NCBI GenBank assembly: GCA_020061125.1
Contig: JAGUYV010000489.1
Span: 1-21,687, forward strand
Source: a bacterium
GTDB lineage: Bacteria; UBP15; UBA6099; DSWB01
Direction of reading: 5' to 3'
Length of the DNA stretch: 21,687 nucleotides
This document shows, in pieces, positions 254 to 21,528 of this stretch. Under the pieces are notes generated by a model. That model worked only from the letters and a program-made list of their open reading frames with translations. It did no database searches and had not been told where the DNA came from. The translations under genes and the position numbers were made by a program. How positions within the stretch are numbered: the stretch's first letter is position 1; every line of letters begins with the position of its first letter.

Positions 254-1855
254 TCAAATCTGCCCGGCGTCGTATGCGGCCAGAAAAGCCTTGACGATAA
301 GCGGGTCGAACTGGGAGCCGGCCTTGGTGGAGACCTGGTTGCGCGCGGCCTGCTTTTCCATGGGGTTGCGGTACGGCCGCGGGCTGGTCATGGCGTCGAA
401 CGAATTCGCGACATTAAGAATGCGGGCGATGAGCGGGATCTGCTCGCCCTGCACGCCTTTGGGATAGCCCTTGCCGTTGTAATGCTCCATGTGGTAGAGC
501 ACCGCGGGCACGGCGTACTCGAGCATCTTGATGCCTTGCAGGAACTTGGCGCCGAACAGGGGCTGGCGCTTGATCACCGCCCATTCCTGCTCGGTGAGTT
601 GTCCCTTTTTGGCGATGATGAAGTCCGGCACCTGGGTGCGGCCGATGTCGTGGAGGAAGGCGCACACCTGCACTTTTTCGATAGTGTCCTTGGGCACGCC
701 GAGCTGCTTGGCGATGGCCACCGCGTACTTGGCCACGCGCAGGCTGTGCCCGTTGTAAAAACTGTGGCGGCTGTCAATCATCTTGACCAGAGCCATGACC
801 ACATTAAGGAACAGTTCCTTGTTGGACTGGAGCAGGCGCACATTCTCGATGGCGATAGCGGCCTGTCCGGCGAGCGCCATCATGTAGGGCACATCGTCTT
901 CCTCGAACTCTTCCTTGTCCAGGGCGTTGATGATCTGGATGACGCCCACATTTTTCTTTTTGAAGAACATGGGCACGCACACAATGGAGCGCGTGCGGAA
1001 GCCCGTTTTTTTGTCAAAGTCGGAATTGAAGCGGTCGTCCTGGTACGCATCGGGGATGAGCTGGGGCTTGCCCTTTTGCGCGACCCAGCCCGCAATGCCC
1101 TTGCCCACGGGCAGGCGGAACTGCTTGATCTGCTCGCCGGCGTCGCCCTGCGCGCTTTCGATGTAAAGCTCCTGGGCCTTTTCGTCTAGCAGGAACAGGG
1201 AGCTGGCCTCGGCGCGCATGACCATCTTGGCGGACTCCATGATGGTGTCCAGAAGCTGGTGCAGATCGTTCTGCTTGTTGATTTCCTCGGACACCTGCAT
1301 GAGCGTGTTGAAGCGCTTGATGCGCGCCTCGGCGGTTTTGAAGGTGGTTTCATTGCCCACGATGGAGGCGGCCTGGTCGGCCAGAATCATGCCGAAGGAC
1401 ACATCCTCGTTGGCGAACTGCATGCCGTCCTTTTTGTTGATGACGCCGATGGCGCCCACCAGTCGGCCGTCCGCGTTCATGGGAAGAACCATGAGGGTCT
1501 TGATGTCTATGCCGAGCAGCTTGCCCACGGCGGGATCATAATCAGGTTCGGAATGAGGGCTGTTGCAGATGCGATGGTTTCCGGACAGGTAGCACTGGCT
1601 GATCACGCCCTTGTCCATGGGCCATTCCTTGCCGATGGTTTGCGCCTTCTTGAGGCCCGCCACGGCGCGCACGGTCAGAAAGTCTCCTTCCACAACATCC
1701 TTGACCAGCATATAGGCGGCCTCGGCCGTGGTGACCATGGTCATCAGGTCGAGGAGATAATTCAGTATGTTGTCGAGCTTTGTGGTGGTGTTCATCACGG
1801 AAATGAGCTGCTTGAGCAGATCATTCTCGCGCTGAAGCCTGAATTCTTCACTCAT
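254..1855 (-). CDS. GAF-GAF-HD-GYP protein with degenerate metal site
   Basis: This is a cytoplasmic sensor protein of 533 aa. The ATG at 1855 is chosen because GGAGG lies 9 nt upstream; an in-frame TTG at 1879 would add 8 residues. Two GAF domains (about residues 20-165 and 190-340) precede an HD-GYP domain (about 350-533). HD-GYP proteins normally hydrolyse c-di-GMP at a di- or tri-iron centre. The first His (H370 in GHSLRV), the HD pair (H402-D403), H455 and the GYP signature (GKGYP, 461-465) are present. The HPxxG His is Gln431, the second His of HHE is Met456, the VAD Asp is Asn484, and the HDxGK Lys is Arg406. Hydrolysis is therefore doubtful; a nucleotide-binding or scaffold role is possible. 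It lies 108 nt downstream of two cyclase genes on the same strand, which suggests a shared signalling role. Confidence 0.88.
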   Translation of the reverse strand: MSEEFRLQRENDLLKQLISVMNTTTKLDNILNYLLDLMTMVTTAEAAYMLVKDVVEGDFLTVRAVAGLKKAQTIGKEWPMDKGVISQCYLSGNHRICNSPHSEPDYDPAVGKLLGIDIKTLMVLPMNADGRLVGAIGVINKKDGMQFANEDVSFGMILADQAASIVGNETTFKTAEARIKRFNTLMQVSEEINKQNDLHQLLDTIMESAKMVMRAEASSLFLLDEKAQELYIESAQGDAGEQIKQFRLPVGKGIAGWVAQKGKPQLIPDAYQDDRFNSDFDKKTGFRTRSIVCVPMFFKKKNVGVIQIINALDKEEFEEDDVPYMMALAGQAAIAIENVRLLQSNKELFLNVVMALVKMIDSRHSFYNGHSLRVAKYAVAIAKQLGVPKDTIEKVQVCAFLHDIGRTQVPDFIIAKKGQLTEQEWAVIKRQPLFGAKFLQGIKMLEYAVPAVLYHMEHYNGKGYPKGVQGEQIPLIARILNVANSFDAMTSPRPYRNPMEKQAARNQVSTKAGSQFDPLIVKAFLAAYDAGQI

Positions 1856-1938
1856 GTCGGAAACCCTCCGTGGCCGCAACAGCGGCCGCGCGGCTTGCTG
1901 TTTTCTGTACCCATTCCTTACAGAATATTATCCCGGCG

Positions 1939-1963: not shown

Positions 1964-4900
1964 TCAGGCCTTTGATTTGAGCAGGTGTTGAAGCAGCTCG
2001 TCAAATTCCGGTCCCGGGGGATCGGCCTTGGCCTTTTCCACGCGGCCGATGGCCATTTGCGTGGGTTTGTCGTCCGGTATGTACTGGTAAACCTCGTTGT
2101 ATTTTGCGATGGCTTCGTCCCACTTGCGTTCGAGATACAGGCGCAGAGCCTCCTCGTGCACGGCCACGCCTTTGGCGATGTTGTCGGGCAGGCCTTCCTC
2201 TTTCTTGGCGAGAATCTCGAAGAGGCCGATCGGCTCGGGAATGCCCTTGTACTTGATGACATCGAGCTGGCGGGTGAGGATGGCGTCCGCGGCGAGTTCG
2301 CGCGTGCGTTCGCTGATGGTCATGATGGTGCCGTAGTCCTTGCCGCCGGCCTCGAGGTGCTCACCCAGTTCGCAGTGGTCGCCCACCACGGTGTAGTTGA
2401 AGATGTTCTTCGAACCCATGTTTCCGGCGATCATTTTTCCGGTGTTGATGCCGCAGCGCGCGGTGAGTTCGTGCTTGCCCTGCTCTTTCCACACCGCGCG
2501 CATCTCGGCCAGCTTGCGCTGCATGTCTATGGTGGCCAGGCACGCATTCCTGGCGTGGTCCTCGAAGAAAATGGGCGCGCCGTAAATGGCCACGATGGCG
2601 TCGCCGATGTACTTGTCCAGGGTGCCCCCGTACTGGAACACGATGTCGGTCATGGCCGTGAGGTACTCGTTGAGCAGATCCACGAGGTCTTCGGGGGTGA
2701 GGCTTTCGGAGATGGAGGTGAACCCGGCCACATCCGAGAAGAACACCGTGCACTCGACCCACTCGCCGCCGAGCCGCAGTTTGTCCGGATTGTCAATAAG
2801 GGAATCCACGACTTCCTTGTTCACATAAGTGGAGAACATGCCCTTCATCTTGTTTTTCTCGCGTTCCTCCGTCACGAACCGGTAGATGAACACCGCCAGG
2901 AACACGAGCACGATGAGAAGCAGCGGGATCAGGAACGGGATTTCAAGCCGGAACAGCCCGAACACGCCGATGGTGACCGCAAACAGGACCAGGCCGAAAA
3001 CGATCATGATGAAGAAATTGACCACGGCCGTCATGAACGAGGATTTGGTGTGCACCAGGCCGCCCGCATAACCCAGAGCCATGCCCAGAACAAGGAAAAT
3101 TATGACCACATAGGCGGGGTTCAGGCGGCGGATGAACAGGTTGTTCACGATGGTGTTGATGGCGTTGGCGTGCAGGCCCACGAAATGGTACCGGGGTTCG
3201 AGCGGGATGGGGTTGATCTCCGCGGTGCCCACGGCGGTGCGGCCTACCAGCAGGATTTTTCCCTTGAGTTCGTTCAAGCTCTTGCGGTACTCCGCTGCTT
3301 TTTCTTTGTCAATCAGCGACTTGGATCCGGACAGCAGCTCGGCCATTTCCAGGTCGTCCTGCTGCTCCAGGGACAGCGTCAGCTTGTACTGCGCAATCTG
3401 CTCTTCGCTCATGCCCTGGGTGTCTTTCTGGAATTTTTCCCAGAGTTCGAAAAGCTGGATCTGGCGGACCATGGTCCAGAGGTTCTTGAGATTGCGGTGC
3501 TCGAAGGTGGTGGTGTCGGCCCAGACGCCCGCCCAGTTGATGAGCATGGCGCCCTGATCCGTGAGGGGAATGACCACATCGCGCGTTTTTCCGGTGCGCG
3601 GGTGTTTCGCGTTTTTGAGCACAATGCGCCGCGGCTGGAACTCCACGGCGTCATGCTTGACGCCAAAGTAGTTCATGGCCAGGAGCAGATTGATGTGCGG
3701 GTAGAGTTTGTTGTCGTAAACCACAGCCGGGGCTATGGTGCGCAGGGTGCCGTCTTTTTCCGTGAACTCGGCGCTGCCGATGCCCGCGCCCGCGAGCGCC
3801 TCGCCCACGGCCGGGTGCACAGGCTCAATGAAACGCTTTTTCACGAAACGCTCTTTCACGCCTTCCGGAAGGTTGAACATATTTTCTCCGGACTGCTTGT
3901 GCAGTTCCTTGAGCGCCGACTTTTTTTCCGTGAGGTCGTGAAGGATTCTCTTGCGCGCAGCGCCGGGTAGCGAATTTTTGTCCTGTTTAAGCAAATATTC
4001 GAGATCCGGCACGCTCAAATTCTGATAGGCGTCGTAAACCAGGCCGTACTTTTCCTGATCCGGGCGGTTGCTCGTGGGGCGCTTGAGGATTTCGATGAAA
4101 ATGTTGCGCACCGGGCCAGATTTGAGAATCTGTGCGGTGTAGGGCGTGGGCAGAAATTCCTTGGACGCGTTGATAATGAACACATTGCCCGCGGCCGCGG
4201 CCGCTTCGCGCAGTTCCTTTTCGCGGTTGGGCGCCAGATCTTCGAGATCCGCTTCGTCCAGAAACTTGAGGATCCACTGGAACCTGCGGGAAACGGTGTC
4301 CATGGCGGGCAGTTTGAGGCGCGAGCGCTGCTCCTCGGGCGTGAGCAACTGGTCGAGCTTTTCCGCGATCACCGGCGCCTGATCCGGAGCGGCCAGGCCC
4401 GGGGGCTGCGAGATGTTGTCAATGTTGTCCACCATGGTGGCGCGGTCGCCCAGGCTGTCGGCCAGGGTCTGCAGGTCCATGCGGAATCCGTCCGCGGAGT
4501 CGGGCACCACGCGGCGGCCGTAGTCGCGGGAATACTCGAAAGTGAACACCACGGCCCCGGCGCCGAGCTGCTCCTTGCCGAGCCTCTTGATGATTGGGAC
4601 ATAGTAACGCGGATCGTCCGGGAAGGTCTCCTCCCACTCAAGGGTGAGATCGTCAATGTCCACGAACACAATGTCATCGGTTGTGGGAACCTGGAAGGCG
4701 GAGAAGCCGCTTTCGGCCAGGGACTGCCGGGTGCGGAACTTGAGGTCCAGATCAAAATTGTCAAACGAGCGGAACGGGCCGGCCAGATACAGGATGCTGA
4801 ACTCCACGGCCAGCACCAGGCCGATGATGAAACCCATGATGCGGTTGCGCTCGTTGATTTTGTTGGGGAGCCGGTCCCCGCGCTTTTTGAGGAACAGATA

Positions 4901-4969
4901 AACCAGCGCGGGCGTGACGGCGAGCGCCAGGATAATGAGCGGTATGTAAATGAGAAGTGGCATGCGCAT
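1964..4969 (-). CDS. CHASE2 membrane protein with class III cyclase domain, metal-site half (C1-like)
   Basis: This 1001-aa protein has hydrophobic segments at about 4-27 and 44-64, a large extracytoplasmic CHASE2 region (about 70-600), three membrane segments (about 612-697), a class III nucleotide cyclase domain (about 735-930) and a short TPR-like tail with a W-D-E-A motif. The cyclase domain keeps both metal-binding aspartates, D746 in FFSDVAGFT and D790 in IGDAIVAIYG, and Lys786. At the transition-state positions it reads GDHCELGEH: Glu867 replaces Asn and His871 replaces Arg. A homodimer should therefore be inactive or very weak. The ATG at 4969 has GGAGG 5 nt upstream and begins 14 nt after the stop of the paralogous gene, so the two are almost certainly co-transcribed. 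The extra N-terminal membrane segment implies the N terminus lies outside if CHASE2 is periplasmic. ATP rather than GTP specificity is inferred from Lys786 and Thr860. Confidence 0.9.
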   Translation of the reverse strand: MRMPLLIYIPLIILALAVTPALVYLFLKKRGDRLPNKINERNRIMGFIIGLVLAVEFSILYLAGPFRSFDNFDLDLKFRTRQSLAESGFSAFQVPTTDDIVFVDIDDLTLEWEETFPDDPRYYVPIIKRLGKEQLGAGAVVFTFEYSRDYGRRVVPDSADGFRMDLQTLADSLGDRATMVDNIDNISQPPGLAAPDQAPVIAEKLDQLLTPEEQRSRLKLPAMDTVSRRFQWILKFLDEADLEDLAPNREKELREAAAAAGNVFIINASKEFLPTPYTAQILKSGPVRNIFIEILKRPTSNRPDQEKYGLVYDAYQNLSVPDLEYLLKQDKNSLPGAARKRILHDLTEKKSALKELHKQSGENMFNLPEGVKERFVKKRFIEPVHPAVGEALAGAGIGSAEFTEKDGTLRTIAPAVVYDNKLYPHINLLLAMNYFGVKHDAVEFQPRRIVLKNAKHPRTGKTRDVVIPLTDQGAMLINWAGVWADTTTFEHRNLKNLWTMVRQIQLFELWEKFQKDTQGMSEEQIAQYKLTLSLEQQDDLEMAELLSGSKSLIDKEKAAEYRKSLNELKGKILLVGRTAVGTAEINPIPLEPRYHFVGLHANAINTIVNNLFIRRLNPAYVVIIFLVLGMALGYAGGLVHTKSSFMTAVVNFFIMIVFGLVLFAVTIGVFGLFRLEIPFLIPLLLIVLVFLAVFIYRFVTEEREKNKMKGMFSTYVNKEVVDSLIDNPDKLRLGGEWVECTVFFSDVAGFTSISESLTPEDLVDLLNEYLTAMTDIVFQYGGTLDKYIGDAIVAIYGAPIFFEDHARNACLATIDMQRKLAEMRAVWKEQGKHELTARCGINTGKMIAGNMGSKNIFNYTVVGDHCELGEHLEAGGKDYGTIMTISERTRELAADAILTRQLDVIKYKGIPEPIGLFEILAKKEEGLPDNIAKGVAVHEEALRLYLERKWDEAIAKYNEVYQYIPDDKPTQMAIGRVEKAKADPPGPEFDELLQHLLKSKA

Positions 4970-4983
4970 GAAATCCTCCCGGG

Positions 4984-7900
4984 TTAAAGGCCCTTTTTGG
5001 TGAGTTTGAATTCGCCCTGCCAGCCGTCACCGGGCGGGTCGGATTTGTACTGTTCGCAACGGGCGCGCAGCACCTTGCTCGGCCCGTCGCCGGGTTTATG
5101 TTCGAGGGCCTCGTCGAACGCGGCCATGGCTTCGTCCCAGCGTCTTTCGGTATACAGTTTGAAGCCCCGCTCGTAAGCCTCCACGCATTTGAGCGTGGCC
5201 TCATCGGGCGGGATGTCCGGACTGCCCACGATCTCGTAAACCTTGATCGGTTCGGTTTTGCCGACCACCACGATGTCGTCCACCAGCCGGGCGGTGATCT
5301 GGTCCTTGGCGCGCTCGTAGGTCATGGCGCTGCACATGAAGGCCACGCCGTACTGGTTGGCGGCGCCAAGGATACGCGCGGCCAGATTCACCGAGTCGCC
5401 CATGATGGTGTAACTGAAGCGCGCGGCCGACCCCATGTTGCCCGCGATCATGGGGCCGGAATTGAGGCCCACGGTCACATTGATAGGCTCAAGACCCTTT
5501 TCCTTCCATTCAATCTTGAGCTGTTCGAGGGCCTTTCTCATGCCCACGCAGGATTTGCACGCGCGGGCCGGGTGATCCTCGAAGGGTACGGGCGCGCCGT
5601 AGATGGACATGATGATGTGGCCCTCGTATTTGTCCAGAGTGCCGTCGTAGCGGAAGATTTCCTCGGTCATGGAGGTGAAGTATTCGTTGAGGCGGTCAAC
5701 CAAGATTTCCGCGTCGTCGGTGTGGATGCCGGGGCCGGAGGCCAGGGCGAACATGGCGGTCAGATCCATGCGCTCGCCGCCGAGCTTGAGCATGTCCGGA
5801 TTCTGGATCAGGGTTTCCACGATGGAGGGCGTCACATATTTCGAGAACATCTCCTTCATGCGCTTGGCTTCCTGGCCCTCTGTCATGAAGCGGTACACGA
5901 CCACGACGAGGTAAACCAGAACCAGTGCCATGGCCACGGGCACGAAGGGAAGCCACAGGCGCGCGCCCGAGAAAGCGGCCACGCACACCGCGCCGTAGGC
6001 GGCGATGGCGCCGAAGGTGATAAGCGCGCCGGGAAGCTGTTTGGCGCGCCCGCCCGCGAAGCCCACAACCAGACCCAGGCCCACGATGATGAGGAAGAAG
6101 AAATGCCATGGCAGCGAGGTGATGAACAGTTCCTTGGTGATGGTGTTCACCAGGTTTGCGTGCATGCCCACAAGGGGATAACGCGGATCGAACGGGATGG
6201 GGTTGAGGTCGTGCGTGTACGGGGCGGTCAGACCCGTGAGCACAACCTTGCCCCTGAAAAATTCGATGTCTTTTTTGATGCTCTTGATCTCGGCCGGACT
6301 CATGGCCTCGACCGCGGCCCGGTCCTCGGGCGAAATGAAGCCGTACTGCTCGATGTACGCGATCACGCGCTTTTCCTGTTTGCTGTCCAGCCCGTCCAGC
6401 ACCTTCTGCTCGTCCGCGGTGATTTCCCACCCGTGAGTGTCCATGAACTCCACGAGCGCATCAATCTCGGGCTGCGTGATGGCGGCGGCCTTTTGCTCTT
6501 CCTCGGGAGTCAGAGGCCCGCTCTTGCCCATGAAGTCCCGGATTTCCTGTTTCTGCTCGTCCGGGGTTTCCTGATACCAGGCCACAATGTCCTCGGTGAG
6601 ATTCTGGCCCAGAGTGTTGATATCCTGCACAAGCTGATTGATTTCTTCCTCGGACAGGGATTGCACAAATTCCTGCTGCTCGGGCGTGAGAGCCGCGCCC
6701 TGCATGCTGGCGGTCACAAGATCATACTTATCCATGAGCGCGTTGTATTGATCAACAACTTCAAGGATGTCAAAATACTGCGCGTACTCGACCTTCTTGA
6801 GCAAATCAAATGTTTTGAGATTTTCCCGCTTTTTCACGGGGATATACAGATCCGTGTACTCGGCGCGGCGGATGAGGTTGTATTTGAGCGCGGTTTCGTA
6901 CACAGCCTTGAAGCTCCGGTGCTCGAACTGATCCGGCTGCGTGAAGCTGCCGGCCCAGTTGACGAGAAGGCTGCGCTTCTCGTACAGGGGCATGGTGATG
7001 GTCTTGGGTTTCTTGTTCCAGGGAAGTTTTGCGTCTTTTATCACGATTTTGTCTGGATAGAAGATCACATTTTCCTGTTTGACATCCATATAGTGCAGTG
7101 CGAGCAGGGTTGTGATGTGCGGATAGAACCTGTTCTGGAACTGGGCCACGGGCGCGCTCATGCGGATGATGCCGTCTTTTTGCAGTTCGGGCTTGACATA
7201 GCCGTACCCGGCGGCGAACTCCACGATGTGCTTGTTGAGAGGCTTGATCTCGCGCAGAATGCGGTACCATTTGTCGAGCTGCTTCACGGACACAGGCGCC
7301 TTTTTGCCGACATCGAATCCCAGGGCGTGATTCATCTCCAGGGCCAGATCGGCCAGCGCCCTTCTCTCTTCAAGAGTCTTCTTGATGGCCTCGATGGTGT
7401 CCTTGTCGAGAGCCAGCACGGCGCGGCCCTTGTATTTTTTTGTCTCCGCGGCCTTGAGCAGGGTTTCGTATTCGCTGGTCATCATGTTGGTGATGAGGGT
7501 GTTGATGTCCACTTCGAGGCGGCTTTCGGTACCGGTGCGGTCCGCCATCTTGATGCGGCGCGAGAACTCGTCTCGAATCTTTTTGTCAAAAAGAATGTGC
7601 TCGACGCCGTATTTGAGCTTGAGCTTGTCTTCGACGATCTGCGCGAGGAACACATTGCCCGAGTCCTTGATGGCCTTGCGCAGTTCCTCGTCCATGTCGA
7701 AGGCGATGGAGTCGAGGCTTTTCTGTTCCTCGAAGAAAGCCTGGAACTCCTTGAAGACCGCGGCGTGGTCCACGGACGCCCTGTCCGAGAGCACGGCCTG
7801 GAGCGCCTGATTGGCGCGCGCCACATTTGCGGGCGCCAGCAGGGGCGCGAGCTGCGAGTCCGGATAAAAAGCGTCCAGGGCGGCGAGCGCCTGCGCCATG

Positions 7901-8973
7901 CTCTCCGCAGGCACGGCCCGGGTCAATTTGTCTTCCGGATATGCCTTTTCCAGGGCCGCGGATAGCGGGCCGAAATCCACGCCCTCGAAATCCTTGGGCT
8001 GGAAAATGCCGCCGGAGTTGAATGCGTTGTTGATCCTGTCCTCGGTGAACACCTCGTTGAGGACCTTGAGCGCGGCGGAGGCGTTTGCGGAGTCCATGTA
8101 GGATGGCGCGTCTTCGCCCCTGGACACGCTTTCGAGCTGCTTTCTGACAATGAGCAACTGCGAGGGGTCGAAGTCGTAGAACACCATCTCGCGTTCCTCT
8201 TCGGAAACGCCCTGGAACTGGGCCAGGATGGACTTGACCGTTGAGATGATGGGCGGATACGAGAGTTCGCCCAGGGTGGTGGCGAGCGCTTTGAGATTCA
8301 CGGCTTCGGGCGACCCCGGCGTGGCCAGGGATCGCTTGCTGTCCACGGCCTGCTTGGCGTCCACGAGCAGGGCGGCGTCGAAGGAATCCACGGCGCCGGT
8401 TTCCCCGGCTTTGACCAGAGCGGCCTTGGCTTTCTGGAAGGTCGCGGCGTCGGCGATGTCATTGACGGCCTTGAAGGCCTCGCGCGTGCGGGTTTTTTCC
8501 GCCTCGAGCAGCGACAGGTCGTCCCGGATCGTGCTCTTGAGGGCGTCGAACCGCTCGTAGAACATGTTGAGGTTGTTTACATCGAGCCGGCGGCCAAAGG
8601 GGTCGAAGAAGAAAATATCGAAAAACATGGCTTTGGCGTTGGCGCCGTCCGCGCCCAGGGCGCGAATGATGTCCGGGTACACTGTGCGGTCCGGAGGAAA
8701 CGGCTTCCACTGCTGGGCGTCGTTGTCGTAGTCGAGCAGAACGATGTCCTTGTTGACGCTCTTCTCGGGCAGAGGGCCGCGAAGACGGAACCGCAGGTCA
8801 TAGGTGCGGTACTCGAAATTCTTCACGAAATCAAAAAAGCCCCTGGCCCCCGGGATGTCTCTGGACCACGAGTTATAGAGCAGGCCGAACGAGGCGGCGA
8901 TCACCAGGCCGATGATCACGCCCACGATGGGATTGCGCTTTTCCGCCTGGCGGGGCAGTTTCAGCAATGCCAT
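4984..8973 (-). CDS. Large CHASE2 membrane protein with class III cyclase domain, transition-state half (C2-like)
   Basis: This 1329-aa protein starts at the ATG at 8973, which has GGGGAGGA 7 nt upstream; the frame is open to an ATG at 9060 but the extension lacks an SD. It has one N-terminal membrane segment (about 14-36), a very long CHASE2 region (about 45-935) containing an acidic helical repeat array (762-908), three membrane segments (about 940-1027), a cyclase domain (about 1065-1265) and a TPR-like tail ending in a Trp-Gln-Gly motif. Both metal aspartates are gone: the FFSD position reads FALA (Leu1077) and IGD reads EGH (His1119). Lys1115, Thr1189, Asn1196 and Arg1200 (GDSVNLAARI) are intact. 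Alone it should be catalytically dead. Its retained residues are exactly those missing from the downstream partner 14 nt away. The 183-nt upstream gap holds a 6-bp hairpin (9017-9033) and AT-rich sequence that may contain the promoter. Confidence 0.9.
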   Translation of the reverse strand: MALLKLPRQAEKRNPIVGVIIGLVIAASFGLLYNSWSRDIPGARGFFDFVKNFEYRTYDLRFRLRGPLPEKSVNKDIVLLDYDNDAQQWKPFPPDRTVYPDIIRALGADGANAKAMFFDIFFFDPFGRRLDVNNLNMFYERFDALKSTIRDDLSLLEAEKTRTREAFKAVNDIADAATFQKAKAALVKAGETGAVDSFDAALLVDAKQAVDSKRSLATPGSPEAVNLKALATTLGELSYPPIISTVKSILAQFQGVSEEEREMVFYDFDPSQLLIVRKQLESVSRGEDAPSYMDSANASAALKVLNEVFTEDRINNAFNSGGIFQPKDFEGVDFGPLSAALEKAYPEDKLTRAVPAESMAQALAALDAFYPDSQLAPLLAPANVARANQALQAVLSDRASVDHAAVFKEFQAFFEEQKSLDSIAFDMDEELRKAIKDSGNVFLAQIVEDKLKLKYGVEHILFDKKIRDEFSRRIKMADRTGTESRLEVDINTLITNMMTSEYETLLKAAETKKYKGRAVLALDKDTIEAIKKTLEERRALADLALEMNHALGFDVGKKAPVSVKQLDKWYRILREIKPLNKHIVEFAAGYGYVKPELQKDGIIRMSAPVAQFQNRFYPHITTLLALHYMDVKQENVIFYPDKIVIKDAKLPWNKKPKTITMPLYEKRSLLVNWAGSFTQPDQFEHRSFKAVYETALKYNLIRRAEYTDLYIPVKKRENLKTFDLLKKVEYAQYFDILEVVDQYNALMDKYDLVTASMQGAALTPEQQEFVQSLSEEEINQLVQDINTLGQNLTEDIVAWYQETPDEQKQEIRDFMGKSGPLTPEEEQKAAAITQPEIDALVEFMDTHGWEITADEQKVLDGLDSKQEKRVIAYIEQYGFISPEDRAAVEAMSPAEIKSIKKDIEFFRGKVVLTGLTAPYTHDLNPIPFDPRYPLVGMHANLVNTITKELFITSLPWHFFFLIIVGLGLVVGFAGGRAKQLPGALITFGAIAAYGAVCVAAFSGARLWLPFVPVAMALVLVYLVVVVYRFMTEGQEAKRMKEMFSKYVTPSIVETLIQNPDMLKLGGERMDLTAMFALASGPGIHTDDAEILVDRLNEYFTSMTEEIFRYDGTLDKYEGHIIMSIYGAPVPFEDHPARACKSCVGMRKALEQLKIEWKEKGLEPINVTVGLNSGPMIAGNMGSAARFSYTIMGDSVNLAARILGAANQYGVAFMCSAMTYERAKDQITARLVDDIVVVGKTEPIKVYEIVGSPDIPPDEATLKCVEAYERGFKLYTERRWDEAMAAFDEALEHKPGDGPSKVLRARCEQYKSDPPGDGWQGEFKLTKKGL
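6250..6690 (-). repeat. Five degenerate ~30-aa repeats inside the CHASE2 region
   Basis: Residues 762-908 of the 1329-aa cyclase divide into five units of 30, 29, 30, 30 and 28 residues. Each begins with Leu/Ile/Ser-Thr/Pro-Pro/Ala/Glu-Glu-Glu/Asp (LTPEQQ, LTEDIV, LTPEEE, ITADEQ, SPEDRA). Most have a second Thr/Ser-Pro-x-Glu/Gln or Ser-x-Glu-Glu turn mid-unit (SEEEI, TPDEQ, TQPEI, SKQEK, SPAEI), and units end in aromatic-Gly or Leu-Gly. The array sits immediately before the last strand of CHASE2 (KVVLTGLTAP). It looks like a stack of helical hairpins rich in Glu and Gln. The 1001-aa paralogue has only a short helical stretch here. The repeats are too diverged to be visible at DNA level. Confidence 0.6.
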
Positions 8974-18751: not shown

Positions 18752-18770
18752 AGGAATGGGAATCATTATC
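18752..18770. promoter_or_regulatory. Fur-box-like element downstream of the start site
   Basis: AGGAATGGGAATCATTATC matches the 19-bp E. coli Fur box at 14 positions, with a perfect right half (AATCATTATC). It follows the PerR-like box by 2 bp. It may be a second half-operator for the same repressor or a site for another Fur-family protein. Confidence 0.4.
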
Positions 18771-18773
18771 AGA

Positions 18774-19253
18774 ATGACGAACGATAACACCATGAGAATG
18801 ACCAGGCAGCGCCAGGTCATCCTTGAAGAACTCAAAGCCATGCACACGCATCCCACGGCGGACGAACTGCACCGGCGCGTGCGCGCGCGCATGCCCAGCA
18901 TCAGCCTGGCCACGGTGTACCGGAACCTGAAGCTGCTGGCTGAAGCGGGATTCATCACCGAGATCCGCACTGTGGGCGTGCAGCGCCGGTACGAGGGCAA
19001 TGTGGATGATCACTATCATCTCACATGCGTGCGCTGCGGCCGCGTGGACGATGCGCCCGTGCCCGCGGATTCGGATCTCCAGGAAGCCGTGAACAACGCC
19101 ACGGGTTACCGAGTGCTTTCGCACCGCGTGGAGTTCCTCGGCGTGTGCCCGTCGTGCGAAAAGTCCTCAACCCAGAACCCCACCGCCCGATCCGGGCGGG
19201 GCAATCGTGTCTCTTATAAACAATCTCATAACCGAAAGGAGTTTTATCAATGA
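18774..19253 (+). CDS. Fur-family repressor, PerR-like
   Basis: This 159-aa Fur-superfamily regulator has the winged-helix domain (HPTADELHRRV ... LATVYRNLKLLAEAGFI) and a C-terminal dimerisation domain. The structural Zn site is complete (CVRCG and CPSCE). The regulatory metal site reads RRYEG, DHYH and GRVDD. The position equal to B. subtilis PerR Asp104 is Asp, as in peroxide-sensing PerR, whereas the Asp85 position is Glu. PerR-type peroxide sensing is therefore likely but not certain. It overlaps the rubrerythrin gene by 4 nt (ATGA). I prefer the ATG at 18774; the one at 18756 lies inside the Fur-box-like element with SD spacing too short, and 18792 is also possible. About 27 residues after the last Cys pair extend beyond the usual PerR end. 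Confidence 0.87.
   Translation: MTNDNTMRMTRQRQVILEELKAMHTHPTADELHRRVRARMPSISLATVYRNLKLLAEAGFITEIRTVGVQRRYEGNVDDHYHLTCVRCGRVDDAPVPADSDLQEAVNNATGYRVLSHRVEFLGVCPSCEKSSTQNPTARSGRGNRVSYKQSHNRKEFYQ
19183..19199 (+). promoter_or_regulatory. GC hairpin in the 3' end of the PerR-like gene
   Basis: A perfect 7-bp stem (CCGCCCG / CGGGCGG, loop ATC) lies inside the last codons of the PerR-like gene, 50 nt before the rubrerythrin ATG. No U-tract follows. It may be a processing or stabilising element that raises the downstream message over the regulator message. Confidence 0.35.
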
Positions 19254-19822
19254 ACATGAAAGGCTCGAAAACCGAACACAACCTGCTGGCGTCGTTCGCA
19301 GGGGAATCCCAGGCCCGGAACCGCTACACCTATTTCGCGGGCCAGGCAAAGAAGGAAGGCTTCATACAAATCGCGGACATCTTCGCGGAAACCGCGGACC
19401 ACGAGAAGGAACACGCCAAGCGCTTCTTCAAGCAGCTTCCCGGCGGCATGGTGGAGATCACCGCGGCGTATCCCGCGGGCGTGATCGGCAGCACAGCCGA
19501 GAACCTCAAGGCGTCGGCCGAGGGCGAAAACGAGGAGTGGACGCTCCTGTACCCCAAATTCGCGGAAATCGCGCGTGAGGAGGGCTTCGAGGAAGCCGCC
19601 ATCATCTGGGAAAAGGTTTCCATCGCGGAAAAGCAGCACGAGAACCGCTTCAGGGGCCTGCTGGCCAATGTGGAAGCGGGCACGGTGTTCAAGAAGGACA
19701 AGGCCGTGGTGTGGCGCTGCCGCAACTGCGGCTATCTGCACGAGGGCAACGAAGCGCCGCACAACTGCCCGGCCTGCGCGCATCCCCAGGCGCACTTCGA
19801 GCTTCTGGCGGAAAACTGGTAA
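19250..19822 (+). CDS. Rubrerythrin
   Basis: This 190-aa cytoplasmic non-haem iron protein reduces hydrogen peroxide to water using electrons from rubredoxin. The ferritin-like diiron domain (1-145) carries E19, E52-x-x-H55, E93, E96 and E127-x-x-H130. The C-terminal rubredoxin domain has C157-x-x-C160 and C173-x-x-C176 for the FeS4 centre. Length and order match classical Desulfovibrio-type rubrerythrins. The ATG at 19250 has AAAGGAG 8 nt upstream and overlaps the PerR-like gene by 4 nt, so translation is probably coupled and expression is controlled by the PerR-like operator upstream. This perR-rbr arrangement is known from anaerobes. Confidence 0.96.
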   Translation: MNMKGSKTEHNLLASFAGESQARNRYTYFAGQAKKEGFIQIADIFAETADHEKEHAKRFFKQLPGGMVEITAAYPAGVIGSTAENLKASAEGENEEWTLLYPKFAEIAREEGFEEAAIIWEKVSIAEKQHENRFRGLLANVEAGTVFKKDKAVVWRCRNCGYLHEGNEAPHNCPACAHPQAHFELLAENW

Positions 19823-19837
19823 TCACACGGCAATCCC

Positions 19838-19865
19838 GCGGGGCGGGCCGCAGCGCCCGCCCCGC
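19838..19865 (+). terminator. Strong GC hairpin after the rubrerythrin gene
   Basis: A perfect 11-bp stem (GCGGGGCGGGC / GCCCGCCCCGC, 6-nt loop) begins 16 nt after the rubrerythrin stop. The sequence after it is pyrimidine-rich (GTCTCCGCCCTTTTCCC) but has no immediate U-run. It may terminate partially or protect the rubrerythrin mRNA 3' end while allowing some read-through into the hemerythrin gene. Confidence 0.55.
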
Positions 19866-19910
19866 GTCTCCGCCCTTTTCCCTGAAACGCTTTGCCGGGG
19901 GGATGTTGCA

Positions 19911-20336
19911 ATGCCTTTCATGGAATGGACCGGACAATTCAGCGTGGGTGTGGACGCCATTGACGGCCAGCACCGGCATTTCTTCACGCTCATCAACACG
20001 CTCCATGCCGCGTTTCACCGCGGCGAGGGCGAATCCGAGCTGCGACAGACCATCGAGGAACTTGCGGACTACGCCGCGTTCCATTTCCAGTCCGAGGAAA
20101 ATTTGCTGCGCGAAATCAAATTTCCGCTCATGCTGAACCACGAGGACGAGCACAAGCGCTTCACCGCCAAAATCCAGGGGTTCCGCGACAAGCTGTCCTC
20201 GGGCAATTTCGCCATCACCGTGCCGCTCATGGATTTCATGAAGCAGTGGCTCTCCGGCCACATCCTCGGATCGGACAAGAAATACGCGGATTTCATTGCT
20301 GAAAATCACATTTCCATAAACGCATCCGGAGGCTGA
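19911..20336 (+). CDS. Bacteriohemerythrin
   Basis: This 141-aa single-domain hemerythrin binds O2 reversibly at a diiron site. All seven ligands are visible: H21, H58, E62, H77, H81, H117 and D122, within the family motifs GVDAIDGQH, HFQSEE, HEDEH and HILGSD. Length is typical of a stand-alone bacteriohemerythrin, with no fused methyl-accepting or cyclase domain. A GGGGGA run lies about 7 nt upstream of the ATG at 19911. It ends one base before the flavodiiron gene, so the two are translated from one message. That pairing suggests O2 capture and delivery to, or buffering for, the flavodiiron O2 reductase. The delivery role is inference. Confidence 0.94.
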   Translation: MPFMEWTGQFSVGVDAIDGQHRHFFTLINTLHAAFHRGEGESELRQTIEELADYAAFHFQSEENLLREIKFPLMLNHEDEHKRFTAKIQGFRDKLSSGNFAITVPLMDFMKQWLSGHILGSDKKYADFIAENHISINASGG

Positions 20337-20337
20337 C

Positions 20338-21528
20338 ATGTACACCATCGAAATTGCGGACAATCTTCACTGGGTGGGCGCCGTGGACTGGAACATCCGC
20401 GACTTCCACGGCTATTCCACGGAACGGGGAACCACTTACAATTCCTTCCTGCTACAGGACGAGAAGAACATTCTGTTCGATACGGTGAAAAAACCGTTCA
20501 CGCAGGATCTCCTGCACAACATCCGGCGGGTCATGGACCCGGAGAAAATTGACTATATTGTGGTGAACCATGTGGAGCCGGACCACTCCGGCGCCCTGCC
20601 CGAGATCCTCCGCGCGTGCAGGCCCGAGAAAATTTATTGTTCCCTCAACGGCAAAAAGGCGCTTGTCGCGCACTACCACGACGAGAACTGGCCCTTCGAG
20701 GTGGTTAAAACCGGGGACTCGTTGTCCGCGGGCAAACGCACGATCCAGTTCCTGGAAACGCGCATGCTGCACTGGCCGGACAGCATGTTCTCGTATCTTG
20801 TTGAAGACAAGATTCTGATTTCCAGCGACGCCTTCGGCCAGCACTGGGCCACGAGCGAGCGGTTCGCCGACCAGGTGGACGAGCCGGAGCTGTTCCGCCA
20901 CGCGGCCAAGTACTACGCCAACATCCTGCTGCTGTTCTCGTCCCATGTGCAGAAACTCCTGGCCACGGTCGGGGACCTGGGTCTGGAATTCAAAATGATC
21001 TGCCCGGATCACGGGCTGATCTGGCGCGAGAACCCGGAGAAGATCGTCGCGGCGTACGACAAGTGGAGCCGCCAGGAACCCGCGAACAAGGCGCTCATCA
21101 TTTACGATTCCATGTGGCAGAGCACCGAGAAGATGGCGCGCGGCGTGGCCCACGGCCTGCTGCAGGAGGGCGTCACGGTCAAGATGATGGACCTCAAATT
21201 GAACCACCGCAGCGACATCATGACCGAGGTGCTGGATGCGCGCGCCCTGCTGTTCGGATCGGCCACGCTCAACAACGGCATGATGCCCAATGTGGCGGAT
21301 TTCATGATGTACCTCCGGGGCCTGTCCCCGGCCAACAAGATCGGCGCGGCGTTCGGCTCGTACGGCTGGTCGGGCGAGGCGGTCAAGCTCATGAACGAGC
21401 GCATGCAGGAAATGAAGATAGAACTCGTGGACGAGGGCCTGCGCGTGAAGTTCGTGCCCACGCACGAGGATCTGGCTGCGTGCGTGGATCTGGGCGCGCG
21501 CGTGGGCAAGGCAATGAAACAGGGCTGA
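20338..21528 (+). CDS. A-type flavoprotein / flavodiiron O2 (or NO) reductase, FprA/ROO-like
   Basis: This 396-aa cytoplasmic enzyme reduces O2 to water (or NO to N2O) without releasing reactive species. The N-terminal metallo-beta-lactamase-like domain has the diiron ligands H78-x-E80-x-D82-H83, H145, D164 and H225. The C-terminal flavodoxin domain (about 252-393) begins with the FMN phosphate loop YDSMWQSTEKMA. No fused rubredoxin is present, so it should take electrons from a separate rubredoxin as Desulfovibrio ROO does. The ATG at 20338 has GGAGG 5 nt upstream, just after the hemerythrin stop. With PerR, rubrerythrin and hemerythrin it completes an O2 and peroxide defence cluster of an anaerobe. 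Confidence 0.95.
   Translation: MYTIEIADNLHWVGAVDWNIRDFHGYSTERGTTYNSFLLQDEKNILFDTVKKPFTQDLLHNIRRVMDPEKIDYIVVNHVEPDHSGALPEILRACRPEKIYCSLNGKKALVAHYHDENWPFEVVKTGDSLSAGKRTIQFLETRMLHWPDSMFSYLVEDKILISSDAFGQHWATSERFADQVDEPELFRHAAKYYANILLLFSSHVQKLLATVGDLGLEFKMICPDHGLIWRENPEKIVAAYDKWSRQEPANKALIIYDSMWQSTEKMARGVAHGLLQEGVTVKMMDLKLNHRSDIMTEVLDARALLFGSATLNNGMMPNVADFMMYLRGLSPANKIGAAFGSYGWSGEAVKLMNERMQEMKIELVDEGLRVKFVPTHEDLAACVDLGARVGKAMKQG

Follow-up and report, generated by a model that had tools for sequence, protein, structure and literature searches.

How two neighbouring membrane cyclases could work when neither possesses a full catalytic set is the question raised by a 21,687-nt stretch of DNA from a UBP15 bacterium (contig JAGUYV010000489.1), referred to here as the window. 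Two genes, P2 (4984..8973, minus strand; 1329 aa from an ATG at 8973) and P1 (1964..4969, minus strand; 1001 aa, ATG at 4969), follow each other head to tail, with 14 nt between the stop codon of P2 and the ATG of P1 and a strong Shine-Dalgarno sequence at both starts (GGGGAGG and GGGAGG, respectively). Each open reading frame (ORF) encodes a CHASE2 sensor, which contains a large insert in P2, transmembrane (TM) helices, a class III cyclase domain and a C-terminal extension. From these sequences we propose, with a probability of roughly 0.9, that P1 is the C1-like and P2 the C2-like subunit of a single membrane adenylyl cyclase, which would have arisen from a canonical homodimeric CHASE2 cyclase through tandem duplication followed by reciprocal loss of active-site residues.

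Both proteins exhibit the architecture of CHASE2 receptor cyclases, with CHASE2 located N-terminal to the cyclase domain and both domains exceeding the Pfam cut-offs. The CHASE2 region of P1, a predicted periplasmic sensor, spans aa 58–629 (3083..4798, minus strand; PF05226, 4.2e-22), and the top-scoring of three CHASE2 stretches in P2 spans aa 889–970 (6064..6309, minus strand; PF05226, 2.6e-29). The alignment to PF00211 that a preliminary description of this locus had called for placed both cyclase domains above the cut-off, at aa 705–925 of P1 (2195..2857, minus strand; 6e-18) and aa 1034–1254 of P2 (5212..5874, minus strand; 1.3e-11). AlphaFold2 (AF2) models of the two domains, with predicted local distance difference test (pLDDT) values of 91.2 and 91.6, respectively, agree with the profiles in assigning them to the class III cyclases, matching 3r5g, 2w01 and 1wc1 with Z scores of 26–27. 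The nearest fold in both cases was CyaB (3r5g), with Z 27.4 and a root mean square deviation (rmsd) of 1.9 over 189 aligned residues for P1, and Z 27.1 and an rmsd of 1.8 over 188 residues for P2. A short helix that follows the first metal position in the P1 model (residues 46–51) has no counterpart in the P2 model, and in P1 the loop expected to carry the equivalent of mammalian Lys1065 is eroded.

When the active-site residues are written in the order metal Asp 1, purine Lys, metal Asp 2, purine Thr, transition-state Asn and transition-state Arg, the signature of P1 reads DKDTEH (D746, K786, D790, T860, E867, H871) and that of P2 reads LKHTNR (L1077, K1115, H1119, T1189, N1196, R1200). HMMER alignments to CyaB (3r5g) and Cya2 (2w01) place these residues in the expected columns, and inspection of the translations bore out all twelve residues, six per chain, that the preliminary description had named or implied, including the adenine-site Lys and Thr that it had claimed for both chains. 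P1 therefore retains the metal aspartates D746 (2732..2734, minus strand, as are all codons given here) and D790 (2600..2602), and carries E867 (2369..2371) and H871 (2357..2359) in place of the transition-state Asn and Arg. P2 carries L1077 (5743..5745) and H1119 (5617..5619) in place of the two aspartates, and retains the transition-state residues N1196 (5386..5388) and R1200 (5374..5376). The split reaches two phosphate-binding positions beyond those previously described. In the mammalian enzymes the triphosphate is contacted by Arg484 from C1 and Lys1065 from C2 (PMC9223806); the Arg484 equivalent is present in P1 (R838, 2456..2458) and replaced in P2 (T1167, 5473..5475), and the Lys1065 equivalent is replaced in P1 (I910, 2240..2242) and present in P2 (K1239, 5257..5259). 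Thus, P1 lacks the Asn, the Arg and the Lys1065 equivalent, P2 lacks both Asp residues and the Arg484 equivalent, and the pair does not correspond to a homodimeric bacterial class III cyclase, since no single chain has complete catalytic residues.

In a head-to-tail class III dimer, P1 would supply D746 and D790 for metal binding and R838 for phosphate binding, and P2 would supply K1115 and T1189 of the adenine site, N1196 and R1200 for the ribose and the transition state, and K1239 for phosphate binding, so that one ATP site would be complete. Most likely, P1 and P2 pair obligately in the inner membrane, their heterodimer containing one composite site for ATP and a second, vacant one; we infer the heterodimerisation itself, as well as cyclic AMP (cAMP) as product, inactivity of each chain alone and dual sensing. 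The second site would consist of L1077, H1119 and T1167 from P2 and E867, H871 and I910 from P1, and is predicted to lack both metal binding and transition-state residues; the Lys and Thr of its adenine pocket are present in P1, and it could therefore bind a regulatory ligand. Since P1 and P2 each bring a CHASE2 sensor, cAMP production is expected to require the two chains together and could combine two signals from the periplasm. The greater divergence of the CHASE2 halves (28% identity between P1 and P2) than of the catalytic ends (41%) fits two different inputs. The source genome is a 4.1-Mb draft, 79% complete, in which 13 matches to cyclic nucleotide monophosphate (cNMP)-binding domains indicate that cAMP receivers could exist.

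As to the predicted product, K1115 and T1189 of P2 conform to the adenylyl cyclase pattern of Lys plus Asp or Thr at the purine site. Lys with Thr is one of several purine-site combinations, and the structural neighbour Cya2, a CHASE2 cyclase, has been described as a guanylyl cyclase, both of which would suit a heterodimer making cyclic GMP (cGMP) or another cyclic nucleotide. However, 112 of 113 intact relatives carry the Lys and 112 of 113 the Thr, and a purine-site Lys with Thr replacing Asp corresponds to the adenylyl cyclase pattern seen in the closest enzymes, for example CyaB of Pseudomonas aeruginosa; we therefore regard a product other than cAMP as unlikely.

The preliminary description had staked its proposal on the substitutions co-occurring in orthologous pairs, and they do so throughout. 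In 7 of 7 UBP15-type genomes (the source genome and six more of the order; group A), the P1–P2 pair is adjacent, in the same order and on the same strand, with reciprocal losses. The C2-like signature in this group is [LM]K[HAS]TNR and the C1-like signature DKDT[ED]H, with an invariant His at the Arg position of the C1-like chain (H871 in P1). The genes around the pair differ among these genomes, the only shared extra being a weak match to an AI-2E transporter, and the pair has therefore been kept together as a unit. P2 is much longer than its orthologues (ORFs of 957–1182 aa), with an acidic helical insert containing LTPEEQ-like repeats inside the CHASE2 region (window 6300–6660, approximately aa 770–890).

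A search for neighbouring CHASE2-cyclase pairs with the same losses, also suggested beforehand, yielded 12 of 12 reciprocal pairs in two further CHASE2 groups, in 2 of which the C2-like side lacks only the first Asp; together with the 7 of 7 orthologous pairs, these show the C1/C2-type partition of residues between two homologous domains. Group B comprises adjacent pairs in 7 genomes ([SAMW]KHTNR with DKD[TS][TA]E): three in G035, G060 and G061 ([SA]KHTNR with DKDTTE), and four more reciprocal pairs in G227, G152, G287 and G088, found by a C2-like profile search of 386 genomes. All seven pairs, without exception, have Glu at the Arg position and His at that of the second Asp. Group C comprises split pairs in 5 genomes, distributed between family f59 (adjacent AKDTNR and DKDTTD or DKDTIE, in which the first Asp is lost and the second present) and family f20 (SKETNR and DKDTIE, both Asp lost), and has a sister family, f58, of solo intact enzymes (DKDTNR). 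Pairs missing only the first Asp look like an intermediate stage. The f58, f59 and f20 stages occur within one bacterial order (L176, L177, L178–L181, L075, L174 and L175).

A partial split was found in nine pairs of GAF-domain cyclases inside UBP15 (group D), in which EK[DE]TNR lies near DKDT[DE]x. Here the gene order is opposite and approximately 0.9–1.9 kb with at least one other ORF separates the partners; this is weaker evidence, because an Asp-to-Glu change may leave metal binding intact. Group D loci include L076, L077, L079, L080, L086 and L182–L184, and two pairs stand in tandem in G005:C1. Overall, missing and retained residues were complementary in 28 of 28 pairs, with an essentially invariant retained set.

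The partition of the two phosphate-binding positions extends to all groups. The Arg484 equivalent is R in 65 and G in 48 of 113 intact relatives, is R or G in all C1-like domains, and is lost in all C2-like domains (T, S, M, A, N or C). At the position of Lys1065, 110 of 113 intact relatives carry K or R, all C2-like domains carry K and no C1-like domain does.

In a tree built with the catalytic columns omitted, C1-like and C2-like domains formed clades at 100% bootstrap within each CHASE2 group, and the sister relation between them had support values of 93/66 in group A, 100/99 in group B and 98/89 in group C. This agrees with the earlier proposal that P1 and P2 diverged after a duplication, as they fall into sister groups, with modest support. 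Intact enzymes were placed between A and B (L140 from Neomarinimicrobiota, and L021) and beside C (f58). Forcing the Asp-less domains of A and B into one clade lowered the log-likelihood by 94.8 and was rejected by the approximately unbiased (AU) test (p-AU 0.0006). In the simplest reading, duplication occurred at least three times, with complementary loss ensuing in each case. The residue pattern is thus more than chance: it is conserved in 7 of 7 orthologous pairs, recurs independently and extends to two more active-site positions.

These observations bear on whether P1 and P2 could both be pseudoenzymes, that is, redundant CHASE2 receptors in decay that now signal by another route or serve only as scaffold or sensor. 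Each chain alone does lack residues held essential, and other intact class III cyclases in the source genome could make redundant copies dispensable. Nevertheless, decay is not expected to be complementary, yet it would have to be so in every pair examined while sparing the retained set, and to have reached the same outcome from repeated independent origins; we consider this highly improbable. Scarcely more probable is that each subunit acts as a homodimer or with another partner, such as an intact cyclase encoded elsewhere, adjacency reflecting recent duplication only. The further cyclases in the same genome would provide such partners, and chimeric class III dimers can form in vitro. However, neither a P1–P1 nor a P2–P2 homodimer would contain a complete site, the pair remains adjacent across families despite changed flanks, with ORF junctions of at most approximately 130 nt in all CHASE2 pairs, and groups B and C yield local sister-pair trees.

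The association between loss and partnership was also assessed against loci holding canonical enzymes. Of 80 loci taken from named genomes across many phyla, 78 had intact domains, none with a second cyclase on its flanks (up to 10 kb each side), and the only two Asp-less domains, both from UBP15, were the only two with an adjacent partner lacking Asn and Arg (2/2 versus 0/78 with a reciprocal partner; Fisher, about 3e-4, related genomes being counted separately and P values computed by hand in this test and the next). In 20 further loci ranked by the C2-like profile and chosen partly for high rank and long ORFs, all 4 Asp-less domains, those of the four group B pairs added by this search, lay next to a reciprocal partner, and the 16 intact domains were all solo (4/4 versus 0/16; about 2e-4). 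Over all loci, one intact domain was paired (G030 L078) and 128 stood alone or lay at the edge of a locus or contig, totals that are descriptive and give no unbiased frequency, as many loci were chosen because they contain pairs. Seven non-canonical domains had no visible partner, all near a locus or contig edge, and one of them is a duplicate of the window's P2 domain. A single-protein scan of genome contigs with P1 gave no matches; an alignment-based scan did find relatives.

A non-reciprocal neighbour case was sought and found in G030 L078, where VTDTDH lies beside DEDTNR, a pseudo-cyclase next to a whole enzyme; therefore, adjacency alone does not force reciprocity. At that locus (G030:C13, 1793–6338), the fully degenerate domain overlaps a neighbour with the full metal, Asn and Arg set and Glu at the purine Lys position, and the complete enzyme is a possible guanylyl cyclase with a pseudo-subunit. 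Two other domains were unusual. The one in L187 (G001:C58, 3212–4816), with the signature DKDTIR, has lost the Asn but not the Arg and may be a C1-like domain on its own, as no partner was seen within 6.5 kb. The other, in L193 (G002:C88, 2330–3673), is a class III cyclase with a Lys/Asp purine site, an unusually strong Pfam match (5e-56) and a very long branch, either a mammalian-like subclass or a contaminant.

Several points weigh against the proposal that P1 and P2 are the two subunits of one enzyme. The sister relation of the group A subunits (A1 + A2) is only modestly supported (93/66), and a canonical cyclase encoded at another locus of the genome might serve as partner instead. P1 alone might retain residual activity, since loss of Asn and Arg is usually less crippling than loss of the metal aspartates. 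Moreover, the C1-like chains carry Lys at the purine position in every group, together with Thr (or Ser), and the vacant site is thus not simply decaying; a regulatory or structural role for it is plausible from these residues. The vacant-site substitutions (H871 and E867 in P1, H1119 in P2 and their group B equivalents) are not random.

According to reviews, bacterial class III adenylyl cyclases are monomers that homodimerise, and the C1/C2 split resulted from an early eukaryotic duplication and fusion (PMC9552081, PMC12505454). As in the pair proposed here, one half of the mammalian transmembrane adenylyl cyclases contributes both metal aspartates and the residue of the Arg484 type, the other half contributes the Lys, Asn, Arg and Lys1065, and of the two resulting sites one is productive and the other vacant (PMC4174876, PMC9223806). 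In contrast, mammalian C1 and C2 belong to a single 12-TM polypeptide made of two fused 6TM-catalytic repeats, whereas P1 and P2 are separate ORFs with CHASE2 sensors and thus fall outside that family, and their vacant site retains the adenine-type Lys and Thr. The alpha and beta subunits of soluble guanylyl cyclase are likewise homologous, separately encoded and joined in one productive class III site, but that enzyme is eukaryotic, GTP-specific and equipped with a haem/NO sensor, unlike the membrane-bound CHASE2 proteins P1 and P2 with their predicted use of ATP. Bacterial cyclases of the CHASE2/CyaB/Cya2 type are the closest in sequence and fold (CyaB, 3r5g; Cya2, 2w01/6fht) and share the architecture, but they are homodimers in which neither chain lacks any of the residues, whereas P1 and P2 are reciprocally incomplete. 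Engineered complementary mutants of Mycobacterium tuberculosis Rv1625c reportedly show that one composite site can suffice. Natural Rv1625c, however, is a homodimer with two sites (PMC9433096), in contrast to the natural split of P1 and P2. One review states that numerous bacterial cyclases depend on dimerisation for complementation, but the case it cites is Rv1625c, which forms two equal sites (PMC9552081). The fungal RGC/NeoR rhodopsin cyclases are obligate heterodimers of two sensory cyclases as well, but RGC1 and RGC2, the partners of NeoR, retain all catalytic residues, and their obligate pairing is thought to be due to sensor or linker (PMC8815786).

The P1/P2-type split is a bacterial variant of the C1/C2 principle that evolved convergently. 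We further consider it probable that, in bacteria, tandem duplication and reciprocal loss turned homodimeric CHASE2 receptor cyclases into heterodimeric adenylyl cyclases of the C1/C2 style on at least three independent occasions, with one more, partial case among GAF-domain cyclases, and that the resulting enzymes act as coincidence detectors in which two sensors are combined with a single catalytic site and with a vacant site that is under constraint and may accommodate a regulator. If so, evolution would have arrived at the animal-type split repeatedly, instead of eukaryotes having invented it once. The arrangement, for which animals provide the usual examples, is here natural, bacterial, conserved and convergent; in the open-access literature, to which our search was confined, we found no report of natural reciprocal active-site loss in a bacterial cyclase pair, and novelty is provisional, as subscription papers were outside its scope. 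P1 and P2 represent a natural candidate for a two-input sensor whose vacant site is comparable with the forskolin site. Furthermore, the group C lineage, with an intact ancestor type, an intermediate and a finished pair, makes the evolution from homodimer to obligate heterodimer directly testable.

Downstream of P1, at a distance of 84 nt, lies a gene for a GAF-GAF-HD (HD-GYP-like) protein identified by Pfam (254..1879, minus strand). It is possibly co-transcribed with the cyclase pair but was not counted as part of the system, because it is not conserved beside the pair in relatives. The protein is a possible cyclic di-GMP (c-di-GMP) phosphodiesterase, perhaps linking two second messengers in the source genome only. 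Rfam and tRNA scans of the window gave no matches. Towards its end (18756–21528), consecutive genes for a Fur-family regulator, rubrerythrin, hemerythrin and a flavodiiron-type protein form a likely oxygen/peroxide defence cluster.

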